Positions 20,793 to 23,700 of a stretch of DNA of 64,000 nt are shown here, piece after piece. Below the pieces are notes generated by a model. That model did not search any database, was not told where the DNA came from, and worked only from the letters and a program-made list of their open reading frames with translations. The position numbers were made by a program, and so were the translations under genes. This DNA comes from Cristatella mucedo (Eukaryota; Bryozoa; Phylactolaemata; Cristatellidae), in assembly GCA_009760855.2 (NCBI GenBank), contig WPIO01000033.1:2146501-2210500 (forward strand), in the 5' to 3' direction. How positions within the stretch are numbered: position 1 is the first letter of the stretch; every line of letters begins with the position of its first letter.

Positions 20793-23700
20793 ATGTCTAC
20801 CGAAGCAGCAGCAGTGCACCCGAGCCGGGTGCTGGCTGACAAGGCTGCAGAGCTTGGCGTGGCCATCACTGATCTGAAGCTTGCCAGGAGCTTGGATGAA
20901 GATGATCCGGTGGGTCAACTGAGGGCACAGTTTCACTATCCGCGCATGAAGGAGCTGCCTCACGGTGAGTTTTAATGTCGCTCCTCACGCGAAGTGGTAA
21001 GTTATTTTTCGATTTGTTCCATCCATGGACCCACCCGCTGGGATCTAGGTCTGCAATGTTTGAGATATGGGAGGCAGAGAAGGGGCTTTTTGAAGGGGGA
21101 CAGACACTCGGGTCAGATGAAGCCTGATTGCTAATTCTGCTGGCCATAACCCGGCTGTGCATAGCTAAGGAGGGGGAAGACAGCCACTGCCATGTTGCCT
21201 TGCACAGGTGACTGGCTGATTGCTGTGAGTGATGCTGATCGCCGCTGCCACCCGGCTTCTCGTGATCACGTGCCTCGGTCTGTTTCCCTTTTCAGTGGAC
21301 ATGGGCTTGGTCGATGACCCCGAGTCCGAGTGTGTGTATCTATGTGGAAACTCGCTCGGTCTGCTGCCCCGAGGCGTGCAGGCTCAGGTCGAGCGTGAGC
21401 TGCAAAAGTGGGCGTCCATGTGAGCTTGCGCTGCACCCCCTTCACTGCTGTTGCCGTGGGCACTCTCATCCGGTGCTTTCGAAGCACAGGCTCGGCCGCT
21501 GTGTGCTCTTCTTGTGGTCATTTGTGCACTCTGAACGGAATTGCAGGGGCGTGTACGGCCACAAGCAGGGAGTCATGCCTTGGGTACACTGCGACGAGTG
21601 CATCGAGGACCAGATGGCCAGCATTGTCGGTGAGAGCTCGCTGCCTCTCACTCCGTGCTCTGGGACACACTCTGCAGCAGCTGCTTTGTTCATGTTCTGT
21701 CGGTTGGTTGAGATGATTGTGGCTGGCAATTGTCTTAGCCCAGAAGGTAAGGTACTTGCTCTTCACAACCCGGATCGTGTGTTCGAGTCCTGCAGTGGTC
21801 GATCCTTAAAACTGAAAACTGCAAGAGGTGGTGATAGCCGGTAAGGCTCTTCTGCCCCTATATAAATGAGGCTGCTAAATCAGCTTAACTTTATTCAACT
21901 AATGTCAGCTCGGCAGCCGGTATGATGTGGAACAATGGATGTGCATAGCTACCCCCTGCGATTGCTTATGCAAATAAATTTGGTTTGGTGGGGTATCACC
22001 TTTTTTGCAGCTTGCAGCAATTGCTAGTTTTTTTTAATTTTAAAAGAGGCTTCGGTGTGGAACTGTGACTCCTTCGGCAGCCTGTGGTTCTTTTAAGTGG
22101 TTGATATCAAACTGGAACAAACACCACTCATAGAGATTATGCCTAGTTCAGTAGGTTCAGCAATTATCTCGGGTATTTCGTGGCAAGCCTGCACCCAGCT
22201 AGTAGAGAACAAATAGCTGTCGTCGTGTGAACAGAGAGTGGCTAGCACTTTTGCTCCGGCACGGTCAAGTGATCTGCTTAGCCCCCATATGGGCAGGAGT
22301 AAGGCACGGCTGAATGAGCATTGATTGAATCTCCTGATGGTCGTGCCTACATTCAGACAGAAGTCCATGAGATGAAAGGGCCTCTTGCAGATACCAGTGT
22401 CCCGAAATTGGGTTGCCGCCGACCTTGTAGAACTTGGCCGATGCTGAACGGCACGGCTCTCACGTGATCCCTTAGAACAGTGGTTCTCAACCTGTGGGTC
22501 GCGACCCCTTGGGAGTTCGAACGACCCTGTCAAAGGGGTCGCCTAAGACCATCGGAAAACATGCATTTACACATTTTGCACACAATAATTTTATGGTTGG
22601 GGTCGCCACAACATGAGGAACTGTATTAATGGGTCGCGGCATTAGGAAGGTTGAGAACCACTGGCTTAGAAGTTGGTCTGCATTGTTGCTAGTCATTATT
22701 GGAGGAAGGATCACTTACTCGTCGTACTATGGTCGATCGAGGTGCAGCAGAGAACCTCTGGCCGGCCATACTGACACGGTTTTATTGGTTGCCACCGGCT
22801 TGCTATGGTGCCACCAGGCTTTCGCACCAGCCTCGGCTTCGCTTGCTTAGCAATGCTTTAGCACTCTGACCGCTGCCGCTCCATGGCGGCGGCTTCTCGC
22901 ATGCTGCCAGCAGCAGCAGGCGTAGCGAGTCATCCTACCGTGTAGTTTGCTCAGGCGTGCAGGCATGCTCATGCGTTTTTCGGTTCGCTCTTGGTCGGTA
23001 ATGCGGGTCGGCTGTGAGCATCTTACTCCTTTGGTGCGGGGTGAACGCATCGAGAGACGTCGAGCGCCTTCCTGCCGGCCTGCCTAGCCTTCTGCCTGTC
23101 GTGCGTTGCAGGCGGTAAAAGGGATGAAGTGGCCGTGATGAACAGTCTGAGCGTCAACATCCACGTGCTCCTGGTATGGGAGAGCGGTTGCCCGCATGCT
23201 GAGAGCAGTTCAAAAAGGGTGGCAGAACTACCGGCGGTCGGCGGCCGGTCGCTTACCCGGCACCTTGAACTCTTCTCTCACTCCTTTCTTCCTCCTCGCC
23301 ACCTTGCTCCTCAATCGATTCGCTTTCTGATGCGCCTTGCCGACGATCGGACTCTCCACTGTTAGGCTACCTTCTACCAGCCGACTGCGAAGAGACACAA
23401 GATAATCATAACTGACAAGACGTTTCCGTCCGATCACGTATGCACGCCAAGTCGTCTGGCTGTTTTCTTCGAGCTGCTGCTGCTGCGGTTATGCATCTGC
23501 CACTCCGACGTCCACCATTTCTACCCTGACCTTTGCAGTACGCAGTGGAGTCGGAGATCAAGCTGAAGGGCCGCGATCCACTGACGAGCATGATCCTCCT
23601 GAAGCCTAGGCAGGTAGGTTGATGATAGCAGAGACACGTGAGTGCTCTGGCGAGGCAATGTCTTGGCCGAGGCAATGTGTCTTGGACGAGGCATTGTTCC

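Follow-up and report, generated by a model that had tools for sequence, protein, structure and literature searches.

A stretch of 64,000 nucleotides, which we refer to as the window, contains the kynureninase gene KYNU, and an element in one of its introns raises the question of whether it belongs to the SPIN family of hAT transposons, and, if so, what kind of animal carries it and how it arrived there. Among the classic examples of DNA that has moved between distant animals is SPIN, whose spread is commonly explained through blood feeders and parasites. The SPIN (Space Invaders) elements reportedly belong to the hAT transposons and occur in mammals as well as in other tetrapods, as described by Pace et al. 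in 2008. An earlier note on the window had proposed that a copy of this family sits in the KYNU gene, and that the genome would count as a further host in the network if it were not that of a vertebrate. Using sequence comparisons across the assembly, gene trees and the published literature, we examine here the structure, relatives, host and probable origin of this element.

Structure and genomic setting of the element

The principal features of the locus are as follows:

20793..31886, + strand, span of the recognised kynureninase (KYNU) coding pieces, with the element inside one intron
21548..21631, + strand, KYNU coding piece upstream of the element (exon edges approximate)
22470..22477, no strand, left target site duplication CCTTAGAA
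22478..22663, + strand, SPIN-type non-autonomous hAT element (MITE), 186 bp; the majority sequence of its copy family is 187 bp (30 copies)
22478..22493, + strand, 16-bp terminal inverted repeat at the 5' end, perfect
22648..22663, + strand, 16-bp terminal inverted repeat at the 3' end, fully complementary to that at the 5' end
22664..22671, no strand, right target site duplication GCTTAGAA, with 7 of 8 letters equal to the left one
23117..23173, + strand, KYNU coding piece downstream of the element (exon edges approximate)

The extent of 186 bp given in the earlier note is borne out, as is its reading of the flanks as an 8-bp duplication with a single mismatch. The terminal inverted repeats are perfect, as it had stated, but they measure 16 bp instead of 15 bp; short CAG-type terminal inverted repeats of this kind are a trait of hAT transposons. 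When the window was scanned for perfect 16-bp inverted repeats no more than 400 bp apart, with low-complexity words excluded, just two were recovered, namely those of the element and a hairpin with a short loop outside it (33147-33197), and the same scan recovered none in 40 versions of it shuffled by dinucleotide. A sensitive self-comparison of the window yielded no second copy of the element, in agreement with the note. Its placement in a KYNU intron likewise holds, with the element falling between the two coding pieces listed above. Two other pieces of this gene match solved kynureninases (E-values 1.6e-18 and 1.7e-11), and the joined version of the gene matches kynureninases from many animal groups.

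The window contains a second gene on the + strand (41091-61790), which codes for STAM, an adaptor combining VHS and SH3 domains:

41091, 45007, 45246, 48636, 48929, 49141 and 59767, + strand, starts of STAM coding pieces
61264-61790, + strand, STAM coding piece read by eye from the translation

An EGF-like domain on the + strand (1017-1466; Pfam EGF_2, just below the cut-off) is followed by an apparent membrane-spanning stretch and is probably part of another gene. Among the repeats, one LINE is present in several copies (6864-7201, 17789-17980, 19678-19869, 58447-59169 and others), and repeats close to the LINE copies carry a CTAGAAAGAGATT motif. A further repeat, which may be a SINE, measures about 180 bp and is dispersed over the window at 15830-16007, 17592-17769, 31525-31702 and 56449-56626, with shorter copies at 21818, 31159, 42052 and 54151. 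At 35611-35849, units of 14 bp form a tandem array with many TTTAGGG-like words, which resembles a decayed telomere-type repeat. Scans of the window for tRNAs and for Rfam families found nothing.

Copies across the genome and their divergence

The earlier note, which knew a single copy, had called for a count across the genome, and this proved to be large. The 186-bp element, used as a query against the assembly (572,011,866 bases), returned 2,269 first-look candidates; the best 40 of these were scored, and all 40 are at least 90% identical to it over at least 180 of its 186 bases. An inner 20-mer of the element occurs exactly 272 times genome-wide (125 + 147), and its reversed-letter control is absent (0 and 0). 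As the 20-mer is also present in a longer copy (L102), this count includes longer SPIN subfamilies. The genome contains hundreds of SPIN copies, and, judging from these figures, it likely holds thousands. Two copies in one of the loci read (L026) lie less than 600 bp apart, at positions 1501-1687 and about 2270-2455 of that locus.

We read 30 of the 40 scored copies (L008-L037), the window copy included, and derived their majority sequence. The sample consists of the copies most similar to that of the window, so that the divergence measured is a minimum: the mean K2P distance to the majority sequence in this close-biased sample is 0.055 (range 0.033-0.075), or 0.046 without CpG sites, and the window copy itself stands at 0.050. 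The mean pairwise distance between the 30 copies (0.104) is 0.95 of twice the mean distance to the majority sequence, which suggests a star-like radiation, as after one burst. A fairly recent arrival, as had been proposed, is thus partly upheld: the 5.0% K2P of the window copy and the nesting of another copy in the tail of a LINE are in its favor, but the sample is biased toward close copies.

Examination of the flanks revealed duplications agreeing at six or more of eight positions in 20 of the 30 copies (five of them perfect), with the other ten ranging from 0 to 5 agreements. When the flank pairings were shuffled 2,000 times, 2.3 copies on average, and never more than 8, reached this level. 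The 8-bp target site duplications are a further hAT trait of the family. In the 20 copies with good duplications the target is mostly centered on TA, with a T at position 4 in 16 of the left and 19 of the right duplications, and an A at position 5 in 20 of the left and 18 of the right ones. This corresponds to the form nnnTAnnn that is seen in the target duplications of Buster-type hATs, the group to which SPIN belongs.

Relationship to SPIN and a longer subfamily

For comparison we used what we take to be the sequence of the mouse SPIN MITE, an uncurated version set down before the majority sequence of the copy family existed. The majority sequence differs from it at one of 84 positions in the left block and one of 78 in the right block, so that the end blocks are identical at 160 of 162 positions. 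The window copy shares 174 of 183 aligned letters with the same putative sequence, the middle being gapped.

Printed mouse sequence gives a second line of comparison. Two mouse reverse primers from the 3' side of Ate1, which appear in a passage of PMC2767504, one of two mouse papers brought up by a search for the letters of the element, match the window copy in the same order at 19 of 20 and 17 of 20 letters, and match the majority sequence at 18 of 19 and 18 of 20. The passage in question does not name the primer sequences as SPIN (PMC2767504). Elsewhere in the window the second of these primers attains at most 15 matches, and 5,000 shuffles likewise reach at most 15, as against its 18 of 20 on the majority sequence. 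We take the mouse repeat beneath the primers to be SPIN. Identity to a mouse genomic repeat extends beyond the end repeats.

A third comparison was made with a blind query consisting of 97 nt of the putative mouse SPIN middle, about 61 of which are absent from the window copy. This query recovered 333 candidates, and all 40 that were scored match it at 85-92%, the best at 92% over 96 of the 97 nt. From the top eight places we fetched six. In four of them both SPIN ends are present, with at most two mismatches in 16; these four are 317-482 bp in length, with flanks matching at 6, 1, 8 and 7 of 8 positions. In another the 5' end is damaged, and the sixth shows neither end. As these longer copies combine the putative mouse middle with SPIN ends, there are at least two subfamilies in the genome. 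The putative mouse internal sequence, which is mostly absent from the window copy, is therefore represented through the second of these. Taken together, the putative mouse MITE, the mouse primer letters and the blind middle query back the membership of the element in SPIN that the earlier note had suggested from its ends and subterminal sequence.

We also sought an autonomous partner by scoring 150 of 237 and 150 of 766 transposase candidates. SPIN ends were found in none of the 60 hAT loci that were read (30 with DUF4371 and 30 with the hAT dimerisation domain), a weak negative because the second 30 loci represent one other hAT family and the loci span 1,500 bases on each side. One 17-nt match in a single locus (L056) has an E-value of 0.18. 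hAT domains exist in this genome, and none among the loci read is tied to SPIN ends. Two candidate partners were rejected since both lack SPIN ends, namely the DUF4371 family comprising L060 and L062-L067, and the young hAT comprising L068-L097. The former measures about 2.7 kb, has the ends CAGGGGTGTCCAA and includes long open frames, its copies being 93-96% identical to L062. The latter is very young, with all 30 loci belonging to one family and the main matches 98-99.9% identical to L073; several of its copies have open frames of about 640 amino acids, and it has apparently been active recently.

Nature of the host and alternative explanations

To place the host we relied on phylogenetic trees of the two genes in the window. 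In the KYNU tree the window gene groups with that of the bryozoan Watersipora (99/85) and then with those of molluscs (93/89). Constraint tests on this tree, in which 13 of the 22 vertebrate rows bear no species name and were assigned as such by the tree itself, reject placement with vertebrates (p 0.032), with vertebrates, lancelets and hemichordates (p 0.029) and with lancelets (p 0.013). In the STAM tree, where no set is starred, the window gene falls among spiralians (17 rows, 82/95), and placement with vertebrates is rejected (p 0.008), while placement with deuterostomes (p 0.22) or arthropods (p 0.30) is not. The window branches are long in both trees (0.85 and 1.24). As far as these two genes tell, the host is not a vertebrate, as the proposal of an additional host had presupposed; from their sequences it is probably a spiralian and perhaps a bryozoan. 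Were the genome instead that of a vertebrate, for instance a cyclostome, the element would mark one more vertebrate host of SPIN. Such a reading could draw on the best KYNU match by score, which is from a sturgeon, with Watersipora second, and on the LINE: among the best 120 of the 1,888 relatives of one 166-residue frame, the four that bear a species name are all from fish. Moreover, no cyclostome is present among the listed matches, and hence none in either tree. Both trees nevertheless separate the window from vertebrates, and we regard this reading as improbable. A lamprey or other cyclostome host, which had been suggested by the LINE and by base composition, was dropped after the KYNU and STAM trees, each with no cyclostome row.

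Other explanations would question the element itself or its family. If it were a member of a different hAT family within this group, it would share with SPIN just the common CAGNGGTTCTCAA-type ends; indeed, another hAT in this genome (L062) has similar ends, no SPIN transposase was found among the loci read, and the comparison with SPIN was made with an uncurated mouse sequence. However, the match to the putative mouse SPIN sequence continues through the subterminal 84 and 78 bp, the letters of the mouse primers agree beyond the end repeat as well, and the putative mouse middle finds matches when used as a blind query, which together make this explanation very unlikely. Less plausible still is vertical inheritance, whereby SPIN would have been present in the bilaterian ancestor and retained in the line of the host. 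Apart from the many copies genome-wide, nothing was seen that favors it. Against it, the copies read, which are non-coding, differ by about 10% pairwise and radiate star-like from one sequence, whereas no relative of the KYNU protein exceeds 54% identity to it (best 120 of 8,000 matches), and unconstrained sequence would be saturated over the time since the bilaterian ancestor. Contamination, or a mis-assembled vertebrate read, is the explanation to which we give the least credence of all. The copies are spread over many contigs with differing flanks and duplications, and one of them (L012) interrupts the tail of a LINE whose relatives occur in the window: the related stretch at 18383-18527 is uninterrupted, is without the element, and has the target once, as against twice in L012. 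Similarly, the joined flanks of L029, L030 and L037 match LINE tails across the junction, with the duplication of L037 being poor (3 of 8).

Origin of the element and its implications

In light of the above, we consider it highly probable that the element is a non-autonomous SPIN hAT copy (MITE) resident in an invertebrate genome, most likely that of a spiralian and perhaps of an animal near bryozoans. It would be a new host for a known family, and possibly a new phylum for it. The MITE itself is without a gene and is presumably mobilised in trans by a hAT transposase. Under such a mechanism the transposase of a full-length SPIN, or of a close relative, would bind the ends of the element, move it by cut-and-paste and insert it at a TA-centered 8-bp target, which would be duplicated in the process.

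We infer that SPIN arrived in this genome by horizontal transfer, because non-coding DNA near-identical to a mouse repeat could not have been retained since the common ancestor of mouse and spiralians. The similarity to the distant host exceeds that of inherited genes, as is apparent from setting the 160 of 162 identical end-block positions against putative mouse SPIN, together with the two printed primers, beside the ceiling of 54% for KYNU among its best 120 relatives. A search for SPIN DNA in viral, bacterial and archaeal contigs, phages, plasmids and E. coli gave no matches. A looser 20-mer was found in three genome contigs and four viral contigs. These have 18-22 bp in common with the element there and at most 20 bp at any other spot, and the matches are due to chance.

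More tentatively, and with somewhat less than even confidence, we suggest that a bryozoan line, or one near it, carries several SPIN subfamilies, one of them with the mouse middle, in hundreds to thousands of copies. If so, this would bring SPIN to a new phylum, among filter feeders as opposed to blood feeders, and would point to a water-borne route or one through shared parasites; such animals might be a possible reservoir for the SPIN invasions of tetrapods. A heavily colonised spiralian beyond the snails would widen the SPIN network, and a genome so rich in copies would let the date and number of SPIN arrivals be measured. The co-occurrence of the mouse-type middle and the short subfamily in one genome makes it possible to test whether SPIN arrived once and was then shortened locally, or arrived several times.

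Comparison with known SPIN systems

No report of SPIN in a bryozoan was met in our literature search, which had most subscription journals outside its reach, so that absence is unproven. The element resembles tetrapod SPIN in its end repeats and both subterminal blocks, which are near-identical to the putative mouse SPIN MITE, in its 8-bp duplications, in the abundance of short non-autonomous copies, and in the presence of a longer subfamily that contains the putative mouse middle. It is unlike tetrapod SPIN in having a host that is non-vertebrate by two gene trees, a 187-bp subfamily with a different short middle, and no transposase found in a weak search of 60 hAT loci. Another, distinct hAT family has in common with the one described here the hAT superfamily, the 8-bp duplications and horizontal transfer among largely aquatic or semi-aquatic animals; it differs in that transposases have been described for it.

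In the literature, a passage of PMC5857283 dates the transfer of SPIN into mammals to 15-46 million years ago. Pace et al. 2008 is cited in passages of PMC5440852 and PMC5857283, while in the excerpts at hand of PMC5331948, PMC5791352, PMC3621081 and PMC3513734 SPIN occurs only as references. Among invertebrates, the blood-feeding bug Rhodnius prolixus carries SPIN (Gilbert et al. 2010, as described in a passage of PMC11614815). As in the present case, the host is an invertebrate and horizontal transfer is the explanation given in that passage (PMC11614815), but Rhodnius prolixus is an arthropod that feeds on vertebrates, whereas the present host belongs to another line.

The snail Biomphalaria glabrata offers a comparison within the spiralians. 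A passage of PMC5440852 reports in it a hAT with about 1,000 copies and significant SPIN identity, with no intact transposases detected, and states that the DNA elements of this snail are not recent invaders. The two systems have in common a spiralian host (a probable one in the present case), identity to SPIN and about a thousand copies (PMC5440852). They differ in that the copies described here lie about 5% from their consensus, in a sample biased toward close copies, as against elements that are not recent in the snail (PMC5440852), and in that the KYNU tree places the present host beside a bryozoan, and then molluscs (93/89).
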